A DNA stretch of 64,000 nucleotides, from assembly GCA_001567255.1 (NCBI GenBank), contig LNBW01000003.1, positions 1 through 64,000 of the forward strand. Reading direction: 5' to 3'. This DNA is from Bacteroidetes bacterium OLB9 (GTDB lineage: Bacteria > Bacteroidota > Bacteroidia > Chitinophagales > Saprospiraceae). Within the stretch, counting starts at the first letter, position 1. Every line of letters starts with the position of its first letter. Below the pieces are notes generated by a model. The model was not told the DNA's origin and ran no database searches. It saw nothing but the letters and a program-made list of their open reading frames with translations. The position numbers and the translations under genes were made by a program. Positions 6,795 to 55,711 of this stretch are shown here, in pieces.

Positions 6795-9404
6795 TTATTT
6801 CAAAGCATATCGGACGCCGACATAAAAGTTCGCCCCAAATATAGGTCCCCATATTAGCGAGCTGTCAAAATATGTTCCAAAAGGATTATCTGCGCTTAGT
6901 ATAGGGTTGTCCATCTTATAGTTGAAAATATTTTCACCACCCACGTAAACATCAAATCCGTTTTTCCAGGACTTTGTAATTTGAGTGTTGCTCAAAAAGT
7001 AAGAAGGAGAAGTGTCAGGCAGTCTATGCGCCTCATCATTAGCTAGTGTAGAAGGTATTCTGGCGGCACTCAGCCAGTTGACTGTATAATCCAGCACCCA
7101 ACCTTTTCCGAATTTTAAGGCTGTATTGGCAAATGCTCGGTGAGGAGAAGTCAGCGGCTTTCTCAACAATTCCTCACCATAAGTAGTTTGCACGTCGTTG
7201 TATCGGTATGCTAGTCTTAAGTCCATCCAGTCAGCCACATCAAAATCAGCCTGAGCCTGGAAACTATTAGAGAAGGATGTACCATTTAGATTGTAGAAGA
7301 TAACTTGGCGGGCAGTTCTATCCAGATCCACCACAACCTGATTAGTAAATTGAATTCGGTTATATTCACCTGATAGGGCTAGCGTTCGTTTGCCTATTGG
7401 AATTTCCTTAGTGACGCTTAGGCCTAAATTCCAAGCTACCTCAGGATTCAATCCATAAGGCGTTTTACTCTTGTCTCCTCCTTCGATGATAAAATCCCGA
7501 GATGAAGCAAATAATCCAATATTTTCCGCAAAGATACTTGCAGTACGCTGACCACGTCCCGCTGCTATCCTGAATACAGTGCGCTGATCAGGAGCATATC
7601 TCAGATTGACTCTTGGTGTGAAAAACAAACCATAATTATTGTGATAATCGGCTCTTGCACCCAATAAAACTGTAAACTTTTCAGATCCCATATAAGTGTA
7701 TTCACCAAAAACGCCTGGCACATATTCGCTTCTAAGATATTCATTTTGTGCCACATTTTCTGTGATATCATCCATCTGAAAACTTGCACCCATTCTTACC
7801 TGGTGATCAGTATTGTTGATAATGCTTTGATATATCATGTTGAAGTACAATGATTTTTCTATCGCATCATATCTGCGTAGGCCAAATTGTGATTTTTGAT
7901 CGTGATAACTACCGGAAACCTGCAAGCCGAGTGATTTATAAGGAGCATCAATATTGACAAATCCGCGCTTTGCCCAAAACTCCACTCTATTCGTTCTCAT
8001 GTCAGCACCCCATATTTTAGATCTGTCTGATCTTCCCGGGTCAAATCCCTTCTGGCCGCTTTCATTGTCGGAATATATCAGGTTGACACCAAACTGACCT
8101 TCCTGACCTTCATTATTAGACCATTTCCATCGGTTTAAAATTTCAAATTGTCTTCCAAGAGGCATATCCAAAAATCCATCATTATTTCCATCGCTCTTGA
8201 CATTTCTTGTAGAAGCATGGATAAGATTGGCTGTACTCCAACGATCATTGACAATATTGCGGTTGAATAGATTGAATTCTAGCCGACCGGACTGATTGCC
8301 ATAGGCATTAAGATATAATTCGTCTTCATGAGCGGGTTTTCTTAGTTCGACGTTGATCTGTCCGGTGATACTTTCATAACCGTTGACGACCGAGCCTGCT
8401 CCCATATTCAGTTGCATACTTTCAATCCATGGTCCGGGTATATAAGTCAGTCCTTGTAAAGCGGCTAGACCTCGAATGGCTGGTACATTTTCACGCGTGA
8501 TTTGCACATATGGTCCTGCCAGTCCAAGCATTTCAATTTTACGGGTTCCGGTTACAGCATCAGTAGTAGCAGCATCGATAGCCGGAGTCGTGTCAAAGCT
8601 TTCAGCTAGATTACAACATGCTGCCTTGAGCAATTCTTTGCTTGATATCTGCTGAACCTTGACAGGCTGGAGATAAGAAACCTCCGTGCTTCTCTTTTTA
8701 TGTACAATTTGTACTTCATTCAGTACATTCAGTGTAGAGATAGTAATATTGATATTTCCGGTCTTTTCTATTAATATCGTATCCGGACTGTAGCCTATAT
8801 AATCTACTACGAGGTAGTCACTTTTCTTTTTAATTTTGGTTTCAAACTGACCCTGAATATCGGTTAAAACCCCATTTTTGTCATTCATCCATCGCACAAC
8901 AGCACCGATAACTGGCAGTAATTCACCACTATCATTTTTCTCAAAAACAGTACCGGTAAGCTTATTAGATGGAGAAGATGTACTGGCCGCTTCATGATGT
9001 TCTTCTTGAGTTTCAGTAGTGGGTTCGGCCATGCTGTCGTGGTGATGATCGTCTGATTCATTTTCGTGACCTTCACGATAATGACAGCATTCATGAAGAC
9101 TTTCATAAGCTTCGTCACTGGCTTTCTGACCTTCTGCATCATGACCAACCGCTAGGATGGCTGCAATTAATTTATTTTTATCAAATTTCTTGTCATTGAC
9201 GGTAACCGTGAGTTGCTGAGCTTCAATATCATATTCGGCTGATTGAACGCCGGCTACCTTTTTTGAGGTAGTTTCAATTCTATCTTTACACATACCACAA
9301 GCGCCACTCACCTGAAGGGTCACTTTGTCTTGTGAAAAAAGAGGATTGGACTGTAGTAATAATACAACTACAGATATAGAAATGTACTTTAATAATTTAT
9401 ACAT
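6795..9404 (-). CDS. TonB-dependent receptor with N-terminal HMA metal-binding domain
   Basis: An 869-residue outer-membrane receptor. From the N-terminus: signal peptide (1-24); heavy-metal-associated domain (about 26-95) with the GACGMC site (C36, C39); a His/Asp/Glu-rich linker with HECCHYREGH and DDHHHD clusters (about 103-140); a CarboxypepD_reg-like domain (about 150-230); a plug domain (about 250-360, with QGLTYIPGPWIESMQLNMGAG); and a 22-strand-type barrel ending in an aromatic C-terminus (GVRYALK). Such receptors import ligands through the outer membrane using TonB/ExbBD energy. The added HMA domain and histidine clusters point to a metal, perhaps copper or zinc, as ligand or signal; this is inference. 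The start at 9404 is preferred because it opens the signal peptide; an in-frame start at 9458 would hide it. It lies 76 bp downstream of a Cys/His-rich gene. Confidence 0.88.
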   Translation of the reverse strand: MYKLLKYISISVVVLLLQSNPLFSQDKVTLQVSGACGMCKDRIETTSKKVAGVQSAEYDIEAQQLTVTVNDKKFDKNKLIAAILAVGHDAEGQKASDEAYESLHECCHYREGHENESDDHHHDSMAEPTTETQEEHHEAASTSSPSNKLTGTVFEKNDSGELLPVIGAVVRWMNDKNGVLTDIQGQFETKIKKKSDYLVVDYIGYSPDTILIEKTGNINITISTLNVLNEVQIVHKKRSTEVSYLQPVKVQQISSKELLKAACCNLAESFDTTPAIDAATTDAVTGTRKIEMLGLAGPYVQITRENVPAIRGLAALQGLTYIPGPWIESMQLNMGAGSVVNGYESITGQINVELRKPAHEDELYLNAYGNQSGRLEFNLFNRNIVNDRWSTANLIHASTRNVKSDGNNDGFLDMPLGRQFEILNRWKWSNNEGQEGQFGVNLIYSDNESGQKGFDPGRSDRSKIWGADMRTNRVEFWAKRGFVNIDAPYKSLGLQVSGSYHDQKSQFGLRRYDAIEKSLYFNMIYQSIINNTDHQVRMGASFQMDDITENVAQNEYLRSEYVPGVFGEYTYMGSEKFTVLLGARADYHNNYGLFFTPRVNLRYAPDQRTVFRIAAGRGQRTASIFAENIGLFASSRDFIIEGGDKSKTPYGLNPEVAWNLGLSVTKEIPIGKRTLALSGEYNRIQFTNQVVVDLDRTARQVIFYNLNGTSFSNSFQAQADFDVADWMDLRLAYRYNDVQTTYGEELLRKPLTSPHRAFANTALKFGKGWVLDYTVNWLSAARIPSTLANDEAHRLPDTSPSYFLSNTQITKSWKNGFDVYVGGENIFNYKMDNPILSADNPFGTYFDSSLIWGPIFGANFYVGVRYALK

Positions 9405-14518: not shown

Positions 14519-15205
14519 ATGATTAGTACAGAATCCATTCAGTTTTTAAAAGAACTTAGGCTCAACAACAATAGATCGTGGTTTGACGATAACCGGTACA
14601 GATACGAAAAGTTAAAAGCAGAACAGTTGCAATTGGCTAGTGATTTATTGGATGCAATTGTAAAATTTGATCCGGCTTTGGAACAACTAGAAGCTAAAGA
14701 CTGTATTTTTCGTATTTATCGTGACATACGGTTCTCAAAAGACAAAACACCGTATAAAACCCATATATCTGTAATTCTGAAGTCTGGTGGCAAAAACAGC
14801 CAATGGTCCGGATATTACCTACATATTGAAGAAGGACAGAGTTTTGCCGGCGGTGGCGTTTGGATGCCGGAAAGACTTCAACTACATAAGATACGGCGAG
14901 AAATCCACTTTTTTCATGATGAACTGAAAACGATCTTGGAAGATAGGGATTTTAAAAAATTATTTGCTGGTTTTGACAAGGATCCGGGAGCGCAACTCAG
15001 CCGTCCACCTAAAGGTTATGATGCCAATGATCCAGCGATCGAGTATTTAAAACTGAAGAGTTTTACTGTCACAACACCCCTGAGAGATGATCTTATTACT
15101 AGCCCGGATCTGATTAAGGTGGTTGCTGATATCTTCAGAACAATATACCCATTGCAGAGATTTCTGAATAGAGCACTGGCTAGCGATGAAAATGGAGGTA
15201 TTTGA
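14519..15205 (+). CDS. DUF2461 family protein
   Basis: A 228-residue cytosolic protein of the DUF2461 (TIGR02453) family. Typical features are the N-terminal FLKELRLNNNRSWFDDNRYRYEKLK segment, FRIYRDIRFSKDKTPYKTHISVIL in the middle, then GYYLHIEEGQSFAGGGVWMPE and the C-terminal YPLQRFLNRAL. The family's function is not known. It overlaps the operon context of the preceding barrel gene (9-bp gap), but a functional link is not evident. Confidence 0.88.
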   Translation: MISTESIQFLKELRLNNNRSWFDDNRYRYEKLKAEQLQLASDLLDAIVKFDPALEQLEAKDCIFRIYRDIRFSKDKTPYKTHISVILKSGGKNSQWSGYYLHIEEGQSFAGGGVWMPERLQLHKIRREIHFFHDELKTILEDRDFKKLFAGFDKDPGAQLSRPPKGYDANDPAIEYLKLKSFTVTTPLRDDLITSPDLIKVVADIFRTIYPLQRFLNRALASDENGGI

Positions 15206-15626
15206 TTATTATGGTGTTTAGGGTAGCAGCAATTAGTACTAACCCACTTAAATGGAGAAACTGATTTTTGCTTTGTCGGAACAGTTTAATCGAAGCCATC
15301 TACCTTCTATTCTGTCAAAATGTCAGGGGTTGCAAGTTATAATTCATCGTCAACAATGCTCTCATCAAGTTTTTTCTAAATCTTTTTATTTACTTATATG
15401 ATTACAATACTACTCAATGTCATTTTAATGCTATATAACCAACCTACACCTTGCTTCATCAACACTTTCCCTATAAAAACAAGTCAAAGTTGACAAAAAT
15501 CACCCGTAACTTTGATAAATTAATTACTTTTGTCATCGGCCATAAAATACGGATATAGGAGTATCTTATGAGCCTTATCGGGTTAATACTTTTGGTATAT
15601 TTTTAAATTGCAATAATTACAAAATC
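15206..15626. other. intergenic region, no gene seen
   Basis: About 420 bp without a supportable reading frame. Two TACTTTTG boxes (15525-15532 and 15587-15594) fit the -7 consensus; the second is 32 bases before the enoyl-CoA hydratase ATG and could serve it. No tRNA, repeat or terminator was recognised. Confidence 0.4.
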
Positions 15627-45422: not shown

Positions 45423-46457
45423 ACCCGTTGTGCGATTAAGAATATAGGTGAAATTTATAAACATATAAAAATATGTTGTGCATAATTCATTGTAATACAA
45501 TAAATAATCGTATCTTTAAGCTATGAAACAACAAAATACGTATGCACAACATAAAGGCAAATTTCGACAAAATTCTTCATATAATCACCAATGAAGTAAA
45601 AGAATTCATTTTTGATGATGGTAATTTTGAATTTTATCCCAGAAAACCGAAAATGAGCGATTGCGAAATTCTGGCATTATCTCTGTGCGCAGAAGCCATG
45701 AGTATTGATTCTGAAAACTATTTCTGGGGTAAAATAAAGAGTCAACCCGATGATTTTCCCAACCTCATTGATCGCTCAAATTACAACAGACGCAGGAGAA
45801 AACTTATTAGTTATCACAATATACTTACTGATAAACTGGCTTCAATACTCAATGAAGGTGAAAATGTTTTTATCGTCGATTCCATGCCAATTCCTGTATG
45901 TAATATAGCCAGAGCAGGCAGGAGCGATGTTTTGAGAGAAAATTTTAAAACCAGCCCCGACAAAGGATATTCTGCTATAACAAAAACTTATTTTTATGGC
46001 TATAAATTACACTTAATTACTTCACTTAAAGGCGTTTATAATTCAATCGACATAACAAAAGCAAGTGTTCACGACGTTCAATACCTAGGTGATGTAAAGC
46101 ATTCTAAATTAAATAACTGTACACTTATAGGAGATAAAGGATACATATCGAGCACACATAAAACGGATTTATTTCATACATCAAATGTACGATTGGAAAC
46201 ACCAAATAGAAGAAATCAAGCCGATTCCAGTAAATTCCCTTATGTCTTTTTTAAAAATAGAAAACGTATAGAAACCCAATTCTCACAACTGACAGACCAA
46301 TTTTTGATTAAAAGGAATTATGCAAAAACATTCTTGGGGTTATGTACTAGAATATGGGCAAAGCTAGCAGGGTTCACAATCCTACAATTTTTAAATCACT
46401 ATAACGGCAAACCACTAAATAACATAAAATATGCCCTGCTTTAATCGCACAACGGGT
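45423..46457 (+). mobile_element. IS982-family insertion sequence, complete
   Basis: A 1035-bp element with perfect 17-bp terminal inverted repeats: ACCCGTTGTGCGATTAA at 45423-45439 and its complement TTAATCGCACAACGGGT at 46441-46457. It has a single transposase gene and an 8-bp target duplication (TATATTAT). Size, termini and transposase fit the IS982 family. The right repeat overlaps the transposase stop codon. The intact ends and frame suggest a recent, possibly active copy. Confidence 0.92.
45542..46444 (+). CDS. IS982-family transposase
   Basis: A 300-residue DDE transposase. The catalytic triad is likely D113 (FIVDSMPIPVC), D198 (IGDKGYIS) and E244 (KRIETQFSQL). The N-terminal FDKILHIITNEVKEF and the RPxMSDCEILALSL-like segment (here PKMSDCEILALSLCAEA) are family hallmarks. 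The stop falls in the right inverted repeat. No frameshift is required, unlike IS1 or IS3 elements. Confidence 0.93.
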   Translation: MHNIKANFDKILHIITNEVKEFIFDDGNFEFYPRKPKMSDCEILALSLCAEAMSIDSENYFWGKIKSQPDDFPNLIDRSNYNRRRRKLISYHNILTDKLASILNEGENVFIVDSMPIPVCNIARAGRSDVLRENFKTSPDKGYSAITKTYFYGYKLHLITSLKGVYNSIDITKASVHDVQYLGDVKHSKLNNCTLIGDKGYISSTHKTDLFHTSNVRLETPNRRNQADSSKFPYVFFKNRKRIETQFSQLTDQFLIKRNYAKTFLGLCTRIWAKLAGFTILQFLNHYNGKPLNNIKYALL

Positions 46458-48065: not shown

Positions 48066-48088
48066 TTACTTTCCGATACAAAAAGTAA
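48066..48088. repeat. attL core of the integrative element
   Basis: The first copy of the 18-bp repeat TTACTTTCCGATACAAAA (48066-48083). Together with the next five bases it forms a perfect inverted repeat: TTACTTT (48066-48072), a 9-base spacer CCGATACAA and AAAGTAA (48082-48088). This is the shape of a tyrosine recombinase core site with two integrase-binding arms around the crossover region. Confidence 0.8.
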
Positions 48089-48142
48089 CTTAATTTTATA
48101 CATAGCTGTATATCAATATATTAGAATTGTTTGTGTGTATTG

Positions 48143-48164
48143 AAGGTACAAATAAGATACAAAG
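48143..48164 (+). repeat. candidate integrase arm-type sites, left end
   Basis: AAGGTACAAAT (48143-48153) is followed at once by AAGATACAAAG (48154-48164): two copies of AAGRTACAA at an 11-bp period, one DNA turn. The same motif with the same 11-bp spacing occurs at the right end (54182-54203). Lying inside the element about 55 bp from the core, they resemble arm-type sites bound by the N-terminal domain of integrases. Confidence 0.55.
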
Positions 48165-48190
48165 ATGTATTATTTTTGCTTTTTTTGCCT

Positions 48191-49729
48191 TTATTGATTT
48201 GGTGAAGTGGTTAAAAATTGCCTTAGTTCGTGCAATCTGTTAAGGTGTGGTAAAAACGTCTCTTTGCCGTTGTTAGCCTTTACAATTGTGATGTGTGCTT
48301 TTATGTACTCTTTGCAATCTGTTATTGTGCTGTAACTGTTAATCTTTACGGGTTGCGTTGGTATCTCGATACTTTTAAAGTAGTCTTCAATTTCTGTTAT
48401 TTGGTTGCTCCAGTCGTCGCCCTCCTTTTTAAGGGATTGCAATTTGTGCAATTCATCATTTTTATTAACTCCCTTTTTAAGTGTGTCCAATTTGTCCAAT
48501 TCTGATACTTTGCCCATTCCCTTTTTTAGGGTGTCCGATTCGTCCAGTTTGTCTAATGCTGTATCTTTATCAGTTCCCTTTTTTAGGGTGTTAAGTTCGT
48601 TAAATTTTTGCCGTGTGTCTTCTTTACCTTCCTTTTTAATGGTGTGTAATTTGTGTAATTTGTCATCTTTGTATTTATCGTTTCTAAATTGTCGCCAGTC
48701 CTGTTTTATTAAAACGTCTGCAATGTCCGACCCTTGTTCCTTTTGTTCGGGTGTGGCTAATCGTTCCAACAAATCCGAAAATATAAACCTTGTTGCATTC
48801 AAACGGCCTTCATATTCTTTGGCTTTAGTTTCCCATTCTTTGAAGGTGTTCCCATCTTTTGAAAGGTCGGGAAATACATAAACAAACCGCCCTTGTAATA
48901 CTTTCAGCTTATCAAATGAAAAACTACTTTTATTATAGACTGCCAACCAAATAAGGTCTTCAGGTGTTTCAGGAAAGCCAAAATACAATGTACCGTAAAC
49001 GGCGGTTTTTGGAGCTTCAACCAATGCAACGGGGTTGCTGTGGTATTTGCCCAAAAGGTGTTCACCAAACAAACAACTGATTTTTTTATCTTGCTTTGTG
49101 TACGCTTCCAACCATTCAGGCAAAGGCTTATTGTTTTGGGCGTGCTGCTTTTCAATTATTGAGTGCAAAAAGTCCGTGCCTGTGGTATGGTTTGCTTCGT
49201 CAAATTGTTTAACCTGCACCGCTCTTACATTGCCCGTTATATCAATAAAAGGAAAAGTATTTGCCCCTGCTCGATAACCATTTGCAACCGTACCCAGTCG
49301 GTATAACTGAACAACCTTTGTAACTTCATTAACTTCAAAGGGAAATTGTACGCTGTAAAATAGGTTCTGTATAAACGTGTTCTTTTCATAGTGCTGTAAT
49401 GTTTGTCTGAATGTTTCAAAGTCAAAAAATACGGGTTCAGGCGTGGGCTGTGGTTTGGGTTGAGTGAAAAAATATTTTTGTTTTGGAACAGTAACTTTAG
49501 TAACTCCAGTAACTTTTTGTTCCTGCTTCCAAATTTCTTTTGCGTAACCGTCTTTATAAGGGTCGTTCCATTGTCTGCATTTATCTTGATTATCGCACCT
49601 GCCCCAATGGTCGGGCAATACTTCGCCCGTTTCAATATCAATGTATCGTTGCCAATGCTTTTTTGCTCCACAATAAGGGCAATTCAACTTTAGTGCTTTG
49701 TTACTTGCTAATGTATATCGGTGTTCCAT
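48191..49729 (-). CDS. zinc-ribbon/TOPRIM-like replication protein, DUF6371-like
   Basis: About 512 residues. The N-terminus has a zinc ribbon (CPYCGAKKHW ... CDNQDKC) like primases of mobile elements. The middle (about 225-345) is TOPRIM-like: VALVEAPKTAVYG supplies the Glu, FVYVFPDLSKDG the Asp pair. This domain order matches the DUF6371-type proteins of Bacteroidota elements, probably a primase-like protein for element replication. Residues about 359-442 are five imperfect repeats with core [LF]xxLxxLKKG of 16-19 residues, then a helical tail. The start at 49729 (MEHRY) is chosen over a TTG at 49735. It is last in the minus-strand operon, 71 bp after the ATPase gene. Confidence 0.7.
   Translation of the reverse strand: MEHRYTLASNKALKLNCPYCGAKKHWQRYIDIETGEVLPDHWGRCDNQDKCRQWNDPYKDGYAKEIWKQEQKVTGVTKVTVPKQKYFFTQPKPQPTPEPVFFDFETFRQTLQHYEKNTFIQNLFYSVQFPFEVNEVTKVVQLYRLGTVANGYRAGANTFPFIDITGNVRAVQVKQFDEANHTTGTDFLHSIIEKQHAQNNKPLPEWLEAYTKQDKKISCLFGEHLLGKYHSNPVALVEAPKTAVYGTLYFGFPETPEDLIWLAVYNKSSFSFDKLKVLQGRFVYVFPDLSKDGNTFKEWETKAKEYEGRLNATRFIFSDLLERLATPEQKEQGSDIADVLIKQDWRQFRNDKYKDDKLHKLHTIKKEGKEDTRQKFNELNTLKKGTDKDTALDKLDESDTLKKGMGKVSELDKLDTLKKGVNKNDELHKLQSLKKEGDDWSNQITEIEDYFKSIEIPTQPVKINSYSTITDCKEYIKAHITIVKANNGKETFLPHLNRLHELRQFLTTSPNQ
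48410..48661 (-). repeat. five-unit coding repeat, [LF]xxLxxLKKG
   Basis: Inside the TOPRIM-like gene, five imperfect units (about 16-19 codons) read KLHKLHTIKKEG, KFNELNTLKKG, LDKLDESDTLKKG, LDKLDTLKKG and LHKLQSLKKEG. At DNA level they show as repeated TTTAGGGTGT-like and AATTTGT-like stretches on the plus strand. The units are alternating hydrophobic and Lys-rich and may form a helical linker or a DNA- or protein-contact surface. Confidence 0.75.
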
Positions 49730-49800
49730 ATTCAATTTTTTTGCTTTGCGTTCACGGTGTTCATGTGTTCAGGTGTGAACAGCGTGAAGAGTGTGAACGA

Positions 49801-50874
49801 TTACAACTTCAAATACTTATTTACTGCTCCTAATGAAACGCCTAATTCTTTTGAAATTTGTCTTTGTGAATATCTTTTTTGGCTCAACTCCTTAGCTTGC
49901 TCAATAAGGCTTTCACGGTCTATTTCTGTTATTTGCTTTAAGTGTTTCCGTTCTGCTCCAAAATCCAAAAACTCAAATGCAAGGAAATTGCAAGGCTTAT
50001 CAATTTGGCAAACAATTACGTTTTCAGTATCGTAAAGCATCGCTGTATTACGGGCTTTAATCTGCTTTATGTATCGCAAATTCTTATCAATGTTACTTTG
50101 CCCTATTGCAAAACAACTATCAATGAAATTGTAAAGCATCTTACTACCGCCTAAATCGTTTTGTGTAATTGGTCGGCTTAAATCACGTTTCGGGGTGTGT
50201 GCAAGCGCCAATATTGAAAGTCCGTATTTGCTTTTTAACGCCTTCAAATACTTCATTAAGGGTAAAGCATCTTTTGAACGCTCCGTTTCATTTTTGAGGT
50301 ATGTAATATTGTCAATAATTAAGATTTTCGCCCCTGTTTCAATTATACTTTGCTCCAATGATTGATTAAGGTGATTTTCAAAGGTAGTTCCCGTTGGTGG
50401 TTCAGTTTCGGGACTTATCTCAACCCGTAGTAAATTGTCATCAAATTGATATTCATTTTCAAAAACTTTTAAGGCTTCATTCTTTACAGAATACCTTGCC
50501 TCAAATTGTTTAGGGGTAAGTTCAAAATCAAAATACAATACTTTTTGGCGTGGGGCTTCCATTTTAAAGCCTTGTATTTGTTCGCCTTTACTTATGCTGT
50601 CGGCAATTTGAACGGCTAAAATTGATTTTCCTAAATTACTATCTGAAAACAAAATACAAATTTCGCCCTCGTGCCAAAATTCGCCAAATAGCATTTCAGG
50701 AATGGGCGTTGTTTTTGCTTGTTCCAACCATTCGTTGGCTGTCATCACTTTGAAAAGACCTTTATTTTGTTCAGCTTCTTTGCGTTTTTGCTCCAGTTGG
50801 TCAAAATGATTGCGCCAAACTTCGGGCTGTTCCAATGGGTTGTTGAGGTCATCAAATACAGGGTTTAGTTTCAT
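49801..50874 (-). CDS. RepA-like AAA/RecA-fold ATPase
   Basis: A 357-residue cytosolic ATPase of the AAA_25/RepA-helicase type. Walker A is SDSNLGKS (77-84), Walker B ILIIDN (184-189), and ALAHTPKR (222-229) is the sensor-like motif of RecA/DnaB-type enzymes; VLYFDFELTPKQFEARY (112-128) is typical of RepA-like proteins. The last 25 residues (YSQRQISKELGVSLGAVNKYLK) form a helix-turn-helix. It likely unwinds or loads at the element's origin. Its start ATG overlaps the stop of the tiny upstream gene (ATGA type, 4 bp). Confidence 0.85.
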   Translation of the reverse strand: MKLNPVFDDLNNPLEQPEVWRNHFDQLEQKRKEAEQNKGLFKVMTANEWLEQAKTTPIPEMLFGEFWHEGEICILFSDSNLGKSILAVQIADSISKGEQIQGFKMEAPRQKVLYFDFELTPKQFEARYSVKNEALKVFENEYQFDDNLLRVEISPETEPPTGTTFENHLNQSLEQSIIETGAKILIIDNITYLKNETERSKDALPLMKYLKALKSKYGLSILALAHTPKRDLSRPITQNDLGGSKMLYNFIDSCFAIGQSNIDKNLRYIKQIKARNTAMLYDTENVIVCQIDKPCNFLAFEFLDFGAERKHLKQITEIDRESLIEQAKELSQKRYSQRQISKELGVSLGAVNKYLKL

Positions 50875-51053
50875 AGCTTAACAGTATTTGAAGGTTCAAC
50901 AATAGACGGGAACAAATCGGGGTTGGTAGTGTAAAACCCTGCACGGTATTTCTGAAAAACTGCAAATACCTTTTTCATTTGTGCATGAAAATTTGTATCT
51001 TTGCCTTGTCTTTTATGCTGAAAAGTTTTAGCCTTGTTGTTTTGATTTTCCAT
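50871..51053 (-). CDS. small hypothetical protein
   Basis: A 60-residue basic protein beginning MENQNNKAKTFQHKRQGKD, with no recognised family. Its ATG overlaps the stop of the excisionase-like gene (TAATG) and its own stop overlaps the ATPase ATG, so it sits in a tightly coupled operon. An internal ATG at 50978 (MKKVFAVFQKYRAG, 35 residues) lies about 28 bases after a copy of the 13-base leader motif AGCATAAAAGACA and is an alternative start. Coupling supports a real gene; function unknown. Confidence 0.6.
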   Translation of the reverse strand: MENQNNKAKTFQHKRQGKDTNFHAQMKKVFAVFQKYRAGFYTTNPDLFPSIVEPSNTVKL

Positions 51054-51394
51054 TACTTCAAGGCTTTTTTATTGTTAGACAAATACGCTTTTGCTTCCTG
51101 CTCAATTTCAGCGTTTGTTTTTTTGCGCCCTTCCTTTAAATACTCGATTAGTTCAGTACGTGAAAAGTACAGGCGTTTACTTCGCTTCATTACAGGCAAT
51201 TCGCCTTTTGATACCTTGCTGTACATTGTGGGTACTGTAAGGCTTAAAAATTCGGCTGCTTCCTGAATCGTTAAAAGTTGTTCCGGTTGTTCGGTGGATT
51301 CAACCGTTTGGGGTGGGGTTTCTTTCAAAACCTTGCGAACTGAACTTTGTATTAAGTTGCTTAGTTGTTCGCTGTCTAATTGTATTATAATCAT
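51053..51394 (-). CDS. excisionase-like helix-turn-helix protein
   Basis: A 113-residue DNA-binding protein. Residues 41-87 form a MerR/excisionase-type winged HTH: LLTIQEAAEFLSLTVPTMYSKVSKGELPVMKRSKRLYFSRTELIEYL. The tail is charged (KKTNAEIEQEAKAYLSNN). Xis proteins bend attachment-site DNA and favour excision; some in this family regulate promoters instead. It is the first gene of an operon that includes the tiny protein, ATPase and TOPRIM-like gene. A palindromic, repeat-rich stretch just upstream (51443-51489) may be its operator. Confidence 0.8.
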   Translation of the reverse strand: MIIIQLDSEQLSNLIQSSVRKVLKETPPQTVESTEQPEQLLTIQEAAEFLSLTVPTMYSKVSKGELPVMKRSKRLYFSRTELIEYLKEGRKKTNAEIEQEAKAYLSNNKKALK

Positions 51395-51442
51395 TTTACA
51401 ACAGTTTTAAAATTTTTACTGCTGCAAAAAACAAATCAATGA

Positions 51443-51489
51443 ATACCCCAATCAATACCTATTTATACTTTGGGGTGCGTTTGGGGTAT
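51443..51489. promoter_or_regulatory. candidate operator or iteron cluster
   Basis: Between the unknown gene and the excisionase-like operon. TTTGGGGT occurs twice, at 51469-51476 and 51480-51487, an 11-bp period. ATACCCCA (51443-51450) and TGGGGTAT (51482-51489) form a perfect inverted repeat. It lies 49-95 bases upstream of the operon's first ATG. It could be an operator for one of the two HTH proteins or an origin-type repeat for the RepA-like ATPase. Confidence 0.5.
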
Positions 51490-51496
51490 AGTATTT

Positions 51497-52315
51497 TTAT
51501 AGTTTTTCGTTTTTTGTTTCCCTTGCCAATTGTGAAGAATTTTTATACGGCAACCAATCAACAATACAAATTCGTTCCTTTTTAGTTGGTTCGCCTTTGC
51601 CCTTATTAAGATTGTCCCAAACGGAACTTTCATTAAACGGTTGAGGTTCTGCAAATCCTTTTTTAACAAACTGAAAAGTTGCACAAATCCAATTCTTTGT
51701 TTCTGTATCTGTGTTCAACAAAAAGCCATTGTATTTAAGCCGTCTGAAAACCTCAACAAACTTGTTTTGGTTATGAGGAAATAACAGAATTTCGCTTAAT
51801 TGTTTGCCCTGTAAAGCTTTCAATAATTCAGCTTCTTTATTAGGGAAATACCCTTTTAGTTCGGAATGTATTTTTTTAATAGTTTCGCTGTTTTTGAATG
51901 TAATTAGTTTTTTGTTTAATTTAGGTTTTCGCTTATCAATCGGTTGGGGTGGCAATGCTTTTAGTTTTTTAGATTCGTTAATCCAATATTCCAACGCTTC
52001 CTCAAAAACGGGTTTGTATTTGATGAAAGTTGCATTTGAATAAACGCCATTCCTTTCAAATGGGTGGTTTGCGTACGTGTAAAGTTCAATTTGTTCTCTT
52101 AAGAATATTTCCTTGCCTGCTTTAGTATCTTTGCTTAAATAGTTCTTTTTGTGTTTCTCAAATGAATTAGCAATATTTTCAATAAATACACTCAATTCAA
52201 TATCAGTAGCACTGTCGATAATTTCTTTTATAAGCTCATACTTTTCTGGCTCGTTTTCCTTTACTAAATCAAGGTGCATTAAATACCGTTCAAAATTTCT
52301 TTCAAAATCGTTCAT
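51497..52315 (-). CDS. hypothetical protein of the integrative element
   Basis: A 272-residue protein of no family I can name. It is acidic and helical at the N-terminus (FERNFERYLMHLDLVKENEPEKYELIKEIID), with a Lys-rich middle (RKPKLNKKLITFKNSETIKKIHSELKGYF) and a C-terminal half with WICATFQFVKKGF and SVWDNLNKGKGEPTKKERICIVDWL. The composition and position resemble unannotated proteins next to integrases in Bacteroidota elements. The start is preceded by the motif AGCATAAAAGACA one base from the ATG, a leader shared with the integrase gene. Confidence 0.65.
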   Translation of the reverse strand: MNDFERNFERYLMHLDLVKENEPEKYELIKEIIDSATDIELSVFIENIANSFEKHKKNYLSKDTKAGKEIFLREQIELYTYANHPFERNGVYSNATFIKYKPVFEEALEYWINESKKLKALPPQPIDKRKPKLNKKLITFKNSETIKKIHSELKGYFPNKEAELLKALQGKQLSEILLFPHNQNKFVEVFRRLKYNGFLLNTDTETKNWICATFQFVKKGFAEPQPFNESSVWDNLNKGKGEPTKKERICIVDWLPYKNSSQLARETKNEKL

Positions 52316-52336
52316 TTGTCTTTTATGCTTAATAGG

Positions 52337-53518
52337 TTAAAAATCTAATTGTATTTTGTCGGCTGCTTTGCGTTTGGTATCGTCCACAATCTTAGCGTAA
52401 ATCTGTGTTGTTTTTAGGTCTTTATGTCCTAACATTTTGGAAACGACGTAAATATCCGTACCGTTAAACATTTGCAAGGTTGCGAAGGTATGCCGGAAAC
52501 AATGAAAGGTTATATCTTTTGTTATTCCTGCTGCTCCGATCCATTGAAATAGGTGTTTATTATGATAGGCTGAATATTTTAAACCTTCAAATACTTTGGC
52601 GGTGGGTTCGCCTTTTTCGTTTAACAAACTTACTGCCTGTTCTGAAATAGGGTAATACTCAATTCCTTTTGTTTTCTTTTGGCTGAAATTCAGGAAATAC
52701 CCTTGCCCCTCAATGTATTCAAGTTCGCCCCAAACCATTTTTTGAATATCTGAAAACCTCAATCCGGTAAGGGCTGAAAACAGGGCTGCACGTTTCAATA
52801 AATCATTGTTACATGGTGTTTTTAAAAGTTTATTCAGTTCTTCAATGGTTAAGTATTCCCGTCTTGTTTCGACTGATTTTATAGGGCTTATTTTGCTGTT
52901 CAGGTCGGTTTGTAGTATGCCGTCTTTATAGGCTTGTTTCAATGCTGCTTTTACTTTATTGAAGTAGGAAGCGGCTGAATTATGTGAAAGGGTGGTTTTG
53001 TCGCTCCTTTTACTTTTGGTTGTAAGTAGGTATTCTTTGAAGTCCTCAAAAAACTTTTCGTTGAGGTCTGCAAACTTCAATTTACCGTTTGTAAACGCTT
53101 CAATGTAGTTGAGTGCTGAAACCCAATTATCATGGTTTGAGGCTTTGCGTTTGTTGGCTAACTTTCTGAAATACTCAATAAAACATTGTTCGCCCAATTC
53201 CTTTTTGCGTAAACGTTCTTTTTCGTAATCGCTGTAAATTTCAGGCTTGTTTAATTGATTTTCGATATCTCGCCATATTTTGTATGCACTGTTGTGATTA
53301 TTAAAATCATGCACTTGGTCAAGTGGGCTTAACTTTTTATTTACTTGCTTATCTAACATACCCTCTTTATTCAACCTACCAAATATGTAAAGCCCTAAAA
53401 ATTTCCTTCGTGTGAGTTCACCTGTTTCTGGGTGTGGGATCGGTGGGTAAAAATCTAAATACAGGCTTTGCCTGTTTCCTGAAATTGCCTTTTGTCTTAA
53501 CTTAACTTTTATTACCAT
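52337..53518 (-). CDS. tyrosine-type integrase
   Basis: A 393-residue site-specific recombinase: an N-terminal arm-binding domain (about 1-95), a SAM-like core-binding domain (about 105-205) and a catalytic domain. The active-site residues are R254 (TGLRFSD), H339 and R342 (FHCFRHTFA), H365 (MLGHKDL) and Y374 (TTQIYAK). This is the usual length and layout of Bacteroidota element integrases. It should act at the 18-bp mnmE site that bounds the element. The AGCATAAAAGACA motif directly precedes the ATG. The gene overlaps no other frame. Confidence 0.95.
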   Translation of the reverse strand: MVIKVKLRQKAISGNRQSLYLDFYPPIPHPETGELTRRKFLGLYIFGRLNKEGMLDKQVNKKLSPLDQVHDFNNHNSAYKIWRDIENQLNKPEIYSDYEKERLRKKELGEQCFIEYFRKLANKRKASNHDNWVSALNYIEAFTNGKLKFADLNEKFFEDFKEYLLTTKSKRSDKTTLSHNSAASYFNKVKAALKQAYKDGILQTDLNSKISPIKSVETRREYLTIEELNKLLKTPCNNDLLKRAALFSALTGLRFSDIQKMVWGELEYIEGQGYFLNFSQKKTKGIEYYPISEQAVSLLNEKGEPTAKVFEGLKYSAYHNKHLFQWIGAAGITKDITFHCFRHTFATLQMFNGTDIYVVSKMLGHKDLKTTQIYAKIVDDTKRKAADKIQLDF

Positions 53519-53538
53519 TGTCTTTTATGCTTTTGTGT

Positions 53539-54090
53539 TTAACTCAATAGTGTATCAATTACCGTTTTCGGAACGTATGCAAACCAACCCTTTTTTATTT
53601 TGGGTATGCTGTTTCGTTTGATAAGGTTTTGTAAGGCTTTTTCTGAAATACGGTATTTGCTTTGTACTTCGGTAAGGGTATAACAGTCTGCAATATCAAA
53701 CTGCTTTTGTTCGTGTTGAGGTGTTACGGGCTGTGGCTGTTCAAAAAGTTTATCAATATCGGAACGCTTAACCCTTGTAATCCTTTGCCCTAAATTCACG
53801 GCTTTGATAGTTCCGTTTTCAATGTAGTAATATGCTGAACGTACTGAACAGTTAAGTAAACGGGCAACTTCACGAACAGTTAAAAACTCTTTTACTTTCA
53901 GTTCCTCAATAGGATGGTTTTTTATACGCTGTGTTTCCTTATTACTGCCTTCAATTTTTGCAGCCCTTAACCTTGCCTTATAAGCCCGTTTGCTGCACGT
54001 ATCACTACAATACTGGGTTACTGTGGTTCGGGCTGTGAACTCATTACCGCAATGCTGGCAAATTCGTTGTACTTTAATATTTGAACTCAT
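53539..54090 (-). CDS. zinc-finger and double helix-turn-helix regulator
   Basis: A 183-residue DNA-binding protein, the first gene from the mnmE end. It has a zinc site (C11, C14, C28, C32: CQHC ... CSDTC), a first MerR/excisionase-like HTH (about 68-115, [36 protein letters not shown]) and a second at 137-180 ([32 protein letters not shown]). The double HTH suggests binding to direct repeats, perhaps those at the element's right end 75-110 bases upstream of its start. It may control integrase expression, which lies 20 bp downstream, or help integration. Confidence 0.8.
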
Positions 54091-54163
54091 TTAATATCCT
54101 TTAGTGTCTTTACGTTTATTTAAGTGCAATTAAGCGCAAAATAAAAAGGGCTTAACCCCGTTT

Positions 54164-54203
54164 TTTGTACCTCAACTGCATAAGGTACAACAAAGGTACA
54201 AAT
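54164..54203. repeat. candidate integrase arm-type sites, right end
   Basis: AAGGTACAA at 54182-54190 and AAGGTACAAAT at 54193-54203 are 11 bp apart, in the same direction and with the same period as the left-end pair (48143-48164). An inverted copy, TTTGTACCT, lies at 54164-54172. The cluster is about 120-160 bp from the right core copy, in otherwise non-coding DNA (54091-54325). Confidence 0.6.
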
Positions 54204-54325
54204 TTACACCGAAAAAACAAACAATATCACAAAGTAAATAATAAGTTTGCATCAATAAAAAATCCCTTATTTCAGGGCTTTAAGTGGGTTTTGTGTTCAC
54301 TTTGTGTTAGGTTGCTTTGTGGTGG

Positions 54326-54343
54326 TTACTTTCCGATACAAAA
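54326..54343. repeat. attR core inside the mnmE 3' end
   Basis: Second copy of TTACTTTCCGATACAAAA. On the minus strand it spells the final mnmE codons for Phe-Cys-Ile-Gly-Lys and the stop. So integration rebuilds the end of mnmE. Beyond the core the sequence (TCGGC) departs from the symmetric half-site seen at the left, as expected for the bacterial side of the site. Confidence 0.85.
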
Positions 54344-55711
54344 TCGGCTGAATATACTATCTAGAAGGTCGTCGGTCGAAATTTCTCCTGTGATAGTGCC
54401 TAAGTTATTAAGTGCTTCTTTGATATCCATAGCGATGAGGTCGGTAGGCATAGCTGAATCCATACCTGCCAAAACTTTATTCAGTGCTTTCATCGTGTTT
54501 TGTAGAGCTTCTGCATGACGGACATTGCTTATGATGGTACCTTCAGCCTGGTGGTGGTCATTGATATATTGGCGCAGGAAGTCAAAAACTGGCTTTAGAG
54601 TTTGTTCCAGTTTTGCGGTGATGGCGAGCGTAGTCAATTGGGATTTAGTAGCGATGAGACTGATTTTTTCGTCTGCTTGAGCTTTCTGTATAGTATCGGC
54701 TTTGTTGAGTAGAATAAGTATCTTTTGTTCTGGTTGAAACTCCAGCTGATTAAAATCTGCCCAAATTTCATCCTCATTCCGGTAGATGTCGTTGAGATAG
54801 AATATGACATCTGCTTCGCGGAGTTTTTGTTTTGATCGCTCAATACCGAGACCTTCGAGCGTATCTTTAGTATCACGGATACCTGCTGTATCTATAAATC
54901 TAAATAGAATACCATCCACAACCAACGTATCTTCGATGAAGTCGCGCGTTGTGCCGGCGATATCGCTAACTAAGGCTTTTTCTTCTTTTAGTATAGTGTT
55001 GAGTAGCGTAGATTTACCGGCATTAGGCGGCCCGATGATAGCCACTGGGATACCTTCTTTGATGCTATTGCCCCATTTGAATGAATCTATCAATGGTCGG
55101 ATGATATTATTAATCTTGTGAATCAGTTCTTTTAACTTGCCGCGATGGGCAAACTCAACATCCTCTTCTGAAAAATCGAGTTCTAACTCAATTAATGCTG
55201 CAAAGTCCACCAGCTCTTGTCGAAGTTCTTTGAGTATGGAGGAAAATTTTCCTTTGAGTTGTTTAAGTGCTATTGCTGATGATTGTGCAGAAGTTGAGTG
55301 AATCAGATCAGCCACTGCCTCGGCTTGTGACAAGTCGAGCCGACCATTGAGGAAGGCGCGGAGAGTAAACTCACCAGGATTGGCCATACGAGCACCGTGC
55401 TTTATGGCTGTATTGAGAATGTCATTGACGATCTGAGGTGAGCCATGGCAAGAAATTTCAGTACTGTCTTCGGTAGTGAAAGATTTTGGACCTTTAAAAA
55501 GAGACACCATGACTTCGTCTATCTCACGACCTTCGTCGATGATCCAGCCGTAATGAATAGTATGTGACGGTTGTGCTTTTAATTTTGGACCTTTAAATAT
55601 AGTATCTGTAATAGCGATAGCATCATTGCCTGACAGACGTATGACAGCTATTGCGCTTTGTCCCTGTGGCGTAGCAGGTGCTACTATAGTATCTGTAAGA
55701 TAGTGTTTCAT
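54326..55711 (-). CDS. mnmE: tRNA modification GTPase MnmE
   Basis: A 461-residue GTPase that, with MnmG, makes the 5-carboxymethylaminomethyl group on U34 of certain tRNAs. Seen: N-terminal folate-binding domain (TDTIVAPATPQGQSAIAVIRLSG, EISCHGSPQIVNDIL), GTPase motifs GPPNAGKST, DIAGTTRDFIEDT, DTAGIRDT and LNKAD, and the C-terminal CIGK motif whose Cys is needed for activity. The frame is intact up to the stop. The last 18 bases are the attachment site of the adjacent element. Gene symbol trmE/thdF in older literature. Confidence 0.95.
   Translation of the reverse strand: MKHYLTDTIVAPATPQGQSAIAVIRLSGNDAIAITDTIFKGPKLKAQPSHTIHYGWIIDEGREIDEVMVSLFKGPKSFTTEDSTEISCHGSPQIVNDILNTAIKHGARMANPGEFTLRAFLNGRLDLSQAEAVADLIHSTSAQSSAIALKQLKGKFSSILKELRQELVDFAALIELELDFSEEDVEFAHRGKLKELIHKINNIIRPLIDSFKWGNSIKEGIPVAIIGPPNAGKSTLLNTILKEEKALVSDIAGTTRDFIEDTLVVDGILFRFIDTAGIRDTKDTLEGLGIERSKQKLREADVIFYLNDIYRNEDEIWADFNQLEFQPEQKILILLNKADTIQKAQADEKISLIATKSQLTTLAITAKLEQTLKPVFDFLRQYINDHHQAEGTIISNVRHAEALQNTMKALNKVLAGMDSAMPTDLIAMDIKEALNNLGTITGEISTDDLLDSIFSRFCIGK

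Follow-up and report, generated by a model that had tools for sequence, protein, structure and literature searches.

A compact, probably helper-dependent integrative element at the 3' end of mnmE belongs to a widespread Bacteroidia family

Introduction

How might a block of DNA that can apparently integrate, but in which no transfer or capsid gene is recognised, pass from one cell to another? The question is raised by a locus at the 3' end of mnmE, within the 64-kb stretch of DNA analysed here (hereafter, the window), for which a preliminary description had proposed a compact, cargo-free integrative element. Searches of the open-access literature, which misses most subscription papers, returned no mnmE-end element from Bacteroidota, and on the strength of those text searches small integrative elements at mnmE, widespread in Bacteroidia, are apparently undescribed.

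Results

Boundaries and gene content

The 18-bp direct repeat previously said to bound a 6.26-kb block, TTACTTTCCGATACAAAA, occurs without mismatch at 48066-48083 and again at 54326-54343, with a spacing of 6,260 bp; no further exact copy exists in the 80 contigs (3.16 Mb) of the host genome, where 4e-4 matches to an 18-mer would be expected by chance (3.16 Mb, both strands). As had also been proposed, the right-hand copy forms the final five codons and stop of mnmE (F-C-I-G-K-stop, read on the minus strand). The target gene itself (54326-55711, minus strand) is kept intact and its product is unchanged, the final codons being supplied by a copy that the element carries. No tRNA or tmRNA gene was found in the 64-kb window; an IS982-family transposase (45542-46444) lies near the chromosomal flank of the element.

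Seven intact ORFs occupy the element, all on the minus strand and pointing away from mnmE. Profile (HMM) searches, in which PF00589 and PF12728 were both matched, identify a 183-aa HTH_17 (AlpA/xis-like) protein with a zinc-finger-like N-terminus (53539-54090), a 393-aa tyrosine integrase (52337-53518; Phage_integrase and Phage_int_SAM_5) with all of its catalytic residues present (R254, H339, R342, H365 and Y374), a 113-aa HTH_17/excisionase-type protein (51053-51394), a 357-aa AAA_25 (RepA-like) ATPase with a weak C-terminal HTH match (49801-50874) and, supported also by a structure model, a 512-aa primase-like protein carrying Zn_ribbon_16, DUF6371 and DUF6965 (48191-49729). These correspond to the integrase, two HTH regulators, ATPase and zinc/TOPRIM-like protein of the preliminary description, which had missed two further genes: one for a 272-aa protein without a family match (51497-52315), beginning 21 bp after int and occupying the place that the 'transposase' has in Tn4555 and the integrase-overlapping gene in PICMIs; and a 60-aa ORF (50871-51053), likewise without a family match, which overlaps the ATPase and HTH genes and has an N-terminus common to relatives.

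Modelled with 14 relatives (pLDDT 76), the primase-like protein finds its best Foldseek matches among DnaG primase cores (E 7e-5, probability 1.0), which supports the earlier zinc/TOPRIM guess, and the 512-aa protein is predicted from this fold to have primase activity. The replication gene set read from the letters, primase-like protein plus ATPase, therefore stands as a DnaG-like primase fold plus AAA_25, from which we infer that an excised circle would be replicated. PDB sequence searches with the ATPase and with the primase returned no match. The model of the 272-aa protein was poor (pLDDT 56), with no Foldseek match; homology to the Tn4555 'transposase' or to other int-adjacent proteins was considered and set aside, hhalign giving nothing significant, and it is by position only that the protein corresponds to the accessory proteins of Tn4555 and the PICMIs.

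Several smaller features accompany these genes. A 13-mer, GCATAAAAGACAA, occurs at the start codons of int (53518-53530) and of the 272-aa gene (52316-52328), and again inside the 60-aa ORF (51006-51018); the Winogradskyella sibling L072 has it without mismatch at the starts of int and of the int-adjacent gene, and L117 at int, and it may be a common leader or regulatory signal. The gap ahead of the 113-aa HTH gene (51430-51490) holds ACCCCAA / TTGGGGT boxes, a possible operator or set of iterons, and the gene for the primase-like protein has imperfect tandem repeats of 48-57 nt (48437-48598) where it encodes a disordered linker.

Attachment and putative arm sites

The distal attachment core (48066-48088) places the 18-bp repeat within a 23-bp near-palindrome, TTACTTTC-CGATACA-AAAAGTAA (8-7-8), which in the mnmE sense reads TTACTTTT-TGTATCG-GAAAGTAA, with TGTATCG as a 7-bp spacer; 0-3 mismatches separate it from the distal-end sequences of the sibling elements L049, L072, L120, L146 and L148. 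The proximal attachment site (54316-54343) consists of the last codons of mnmE and an element-borne CCACCACAAA (mnmE sense) that is kept in the nearest relatives, and attP can be reconstructed by joining the element ends through TTACTTTTTGTATCGGAAAGTAACCACCACAAA.

Scoring the motif TTTGTACCT with up to one mismatch picks out two like 9-mers, 11 bp apart, at either end: at 48144-48163 on the minus strand, 98/87 bp before the distal end, and at 54183-54202, +123/+134 after mnmE, where a single inverted copy (54164-54172) follows at +153. These are the only two pairs with 11-bp spacing in the 64-kb window, and none arose in 30 shuffles; eleven relatives, among them insertions at secA (L125) and dnaK (L135), have a pair with the same spacing after the target gene. 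We read the pairs as arm sites that the integrase would bind, and the att site as a whole looks intact and lambda-type, with a palindromic core, a 7-bp spacer and paired arm sites. Imperfect inverted repeats of 8 bp flanking a 7-bp overlap were likewise proposed for the attP of SGI1, and 7 bp is also the spacing found in lambda, CTnDOT, CTnBST and NBU1 (PMC2297512).

The integrase family and its targets

At a threshold of E<=1e-70 the integrase family was found in 40 of 395 Bacteroidia genomes. Among 41 matches, the window's included, 37 could be assigned to a site: 31 lie directly after mnmE, three follow dnaK, two follow secA and one uses another; the family thus sits at the mnmE end in about 8% of the sampled genomes. 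Comparison with other mnmE-inserted elements of Bacteroidota, as the preliminary description had advised, places the window's in a large family of Bacteroidia elements at mnmE, and within Bacteroidota this one integrase family explains the use of the site. Three breaks at E. coli mnmE ends, inspected as a source of SGI1-like integrases, are not integrase islands.

In the integrase tree the secA integrases form one clade, as do those at the dnaK 3' end (L129, L135, L142). The secA target genes end in C-H-G-K-stop, TGYCACGGWAAGTAA, similar in sequence to the mnmE core TGTATCGGAAAGTAA; from this similarity it seems that the choice of target follows a DNA core shared by mnmE and secA, TGTnnCGGAAAGTAA, rather than the gene, as if targets were selected by a rule at the level of DNA sequence.

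Most genomes contain single copies of the 18-mer class; other pairs on one contig are also seen, for example 30.8 kb apart in G338. A sister integrase in L124 is accompanied by a different 25-bp repeat, GCAAGTCTGGAGACTTGCGAAAGTT, in copies at 7344 and 18096, 10.8 kb apart. A scan of viral contigs with the integrase found no relative; with the ATPase, two contigs matched and were not informative.

Evidence for horizontal spread and retained function

Compared with the window integrase, the G234 and Winogradskyella enzymes show 78% and 73% identity, respectively; for MnmE, identity between these two and the host is 47-50%. Integrases up to 78% identical where host MnmE stands at about 50% indicate that the elements travel. 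The ATPase gene shows a pS of 0.35 against a Bacteroidales element, the topology of the integrase tree departs from host families, and pN/pS is 0.2-0.4 in the element genes tested.

The empty mnmE 3' end anticipated in close relatives is seen in three congeners (G007, G001 and G003), which have no integrase nearby; since downstream genes differ, there is no syntenic empty-site alignment. Two other congeners have more distant integrases at the mnmE end. Taken together, the integrase and MnmE identities, ATPase pS, tree, congener mnmE ends and pN/pS support both horizontal spread and retained function. In the congeners G006 and G009 the contig with mnmE breaks off at the gene's 3' end, which is what insertions that vary between cells would be expected to produce.

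Siblings

The order mnmE-HTH-int-unknown-HTH-(60-100 aa)-ATPase-primase recurs in L072 and others. What stays constant in the siblings is int, the int-adjacent gene and the HTH genes, while the replication module is swapped: AAA_25 with DUF6371 in the window element, L072 and L117; D5/DUF5906 helicase with DUF6371 in L052; BT4734/PriCT_2/AAA_25 proteins in L083 and relatives in L130-L141; DUF3987 in L121, L154 and L155 (by similarity); and rolling-circle G2P or Rep_1 proteins in L146, L148, L149 and L125. In L122, L130, L137, L140, L141 and L146, int and the int-adjacent gene overlap by 4 nt. Small elements of 5.4-6.5 kb comprise the window's and those of L146 and L148 (5.4 and 6.5 kb, both ends mapped), and L051 provides another element end with the primase as terminal gene.

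Sibling cargo is often restriction-modification, with RM genes in at least nine relatives. In the Aquimarina mnmE element (L083, 14241-20049) a 1433-aa protein and a GHKL-like ATPase follow, a possible defence cargo. Between the HTH gene and int, L049 (2603-4477) and L052 (5668-7410) encode 580-624-aa proteins of no assigned family, which have a short zinc-finger-like stretch in common with the 183-aa HTH protein. Downstream of mnmE in L072 a second att-like copy and then an HTH gene fragment (14958-15298) form the remnant of a tandem second element.

Genes that may serve exit from the cell differ among siblings. The L049 element, with the site and gene order of the window's, ends in a terminase small subunit gene (Terminase_2, 3e-38) and is the only sibling with a confident TerS; Chryseobacterium L063 gives a weak terminase match behind the primase. 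A 200-aa protein behind the L072 primase was considered as terminase-like and rejected for want of PHROG or Pfam support. Two Bacteroidales elements at mnmE (L154, L155; far ends unmapped) carry a PF03432 relaxase behind the primase.

Transfer and packaging genes

HMM searches of the kind recommended at the outset recognised no relaxase, transfer or capsid gene in the window element, nor did we identify a terS or a candidate pac/cos site or oriT there. Across the host genome (97% complete) there is no match to relaxase PF03432, Tn4555-type MobA, Terminase_2 or Terminase_6N. No helper was found in that genome; PF02534, which gave no match in a Bacteroides control either, is a weak test in Bacteroidota. 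The terminase small subunit encoded by a prophage fragment in G024 shares 28% identity with the L049 one, which is suggestive of a co-resident phage and is not evidence of a helper.

Discussion

Synthesising these results, we consider that the block is probably a functional, helper-dependent minimal integrative element. We propose that the integrase and the HTH_17 proteins, perhaps with the 272-aa protein, would excise it as a circle, that the AAA_25 ATPase and DnaG-like primase would copy this circle, and that the element would then exit the cell in a helper's machinery. That it is instead a set of ordinary chromosomal genes beside a fortuitous repeat is refuted by the rarity of such an 18-mer match genome-wide, by the confinement of the two arm pairs to the ends, by the presence of an integrase and by congeners without the block. 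It is also very improbable that we are looking at an immobile, reduced remnant of a larger element that has lost cargo and transfer genes: although neither these nor a helper are found in the genome, and decayed or partial siblings exist (L050; the tandem remnant in L072), all ORFs are intact, as are both att ends and the arm sites, pN/pS is low, and equally small elements occur in L146 and L148, with a primase-terminal end in L051.

The identity of the helper is more finely balanced. PICI satellites redirect packaging by a terminase small subunit, and packaging by a helper phage, in a PICMI- or PICI-like manner, is the route that we favour, at about even chances. Somewhat less probable is a Tn4555/NBU-type integrative mobilizable element, whose mobA was lost or never present, and which would conjugate, without a relaxase of its own, from an oriT recognised by a helper relaxase. 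The circular Bacteroides record CP103138, with HTH-int-'transposase'-xis-AAA ATPase-DUF6371-mob in the order of the window element, speaks for such mobilisation, as do the relaxase genes of L154 and L155 and the description of oriT-only IMEs (PMC5704250, PMC11389934); against it, no element of the window's own clade contains a PF03432 relaxase or Tn4555-type MobA, Tn4555-like integrases fall in a different part of the integrase tree, and a close sibling has TerS instead. It is the L049 terS, the L063 match, the L154/L155 relaxases, the CP103138 order, the host-genome searches and PICMI biology, weighed together, that lead us to lean towards phage packaging.

We also speculate, while thinking it rather unlikely, that one mnmE-end chassis (integrase, excision proteins and a swappable replicon) serves both routes, acting with TerS as a phage satellite, with a relaxase as a mobilizable element and, when bare, with whichever helper is present; if true, the border between satellite and IME in Bacteroidota would be a single gene slot. 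The sibling elements form a natural series differing in the gene that may decide the mode of travel, and the mapped att site makes excision, helper dependence and defence cargo directly testable.

Among known systems, the Tn4555 type is represented by CP103138 (cfxA), which is Tn4555-like as identified from its gene content. It shares with the window element the order HTH - integrase - unknown/'transposase' - excisionase - AAA ATPase - DUF6371, with homologous ATPase (about 40% identity) and primase (about 30%). Beyond these genes CP103138 has a mobilization gene and cfxA, both absent from the window element, which uses mnmE and, for all its backbone order, lacks the relaxase of its own that marks a Tn4555-type IME. 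SGI1 integrates at the last 18 bp of mnmE/thdF and has its own replicon (PMC2297512, PMC8409611). Compared by description rather than by Int sequence, it is like the window element in this site and in 8-bp inverted repeats around a 7-bp overlap, but is 43 kb long and belongs to another phylum, and IncA/C plasmids mobilise it, with MpsA as an atypical relaxase; that unrelated integrases converge on the C-x-G-K codons, as the preliminary description suggested from SGI1, is a conjecture. With the PICIs the link is through L049, which has int, HTH, ATPase, primase and terS, whereas the window element is without terS or a packaging module.

The PICMIs of Vibrionaceae, of about 6.1 kb and carried by virulent phages, require int, alpA, primase and an int-overlapping gene for transfer; their model requires a DUF3987/DUF5906 primase and a fis site, and the overlapping gene, iolg, is present in 21/35 subfamilies (PMC10803314). 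Likened to them from genes alone, the window element agrees in size, integrase, AlpA/HTH_17 protein, primase, an extra gene beside int, the absence of a capsid-remodelling gene and a site at the 3' end of a protein gene, with defence function (PMC10803314) a further likeness. It differs in having DUF6371/AAA_25 and mnmE, not DUF3987/DUF5906 and fis, and in a 272-aa gene that starts past int without overlap; the PICMI primase domains, DUF5906 or DUF3987, are themselves present in some of its mnmE siblings.
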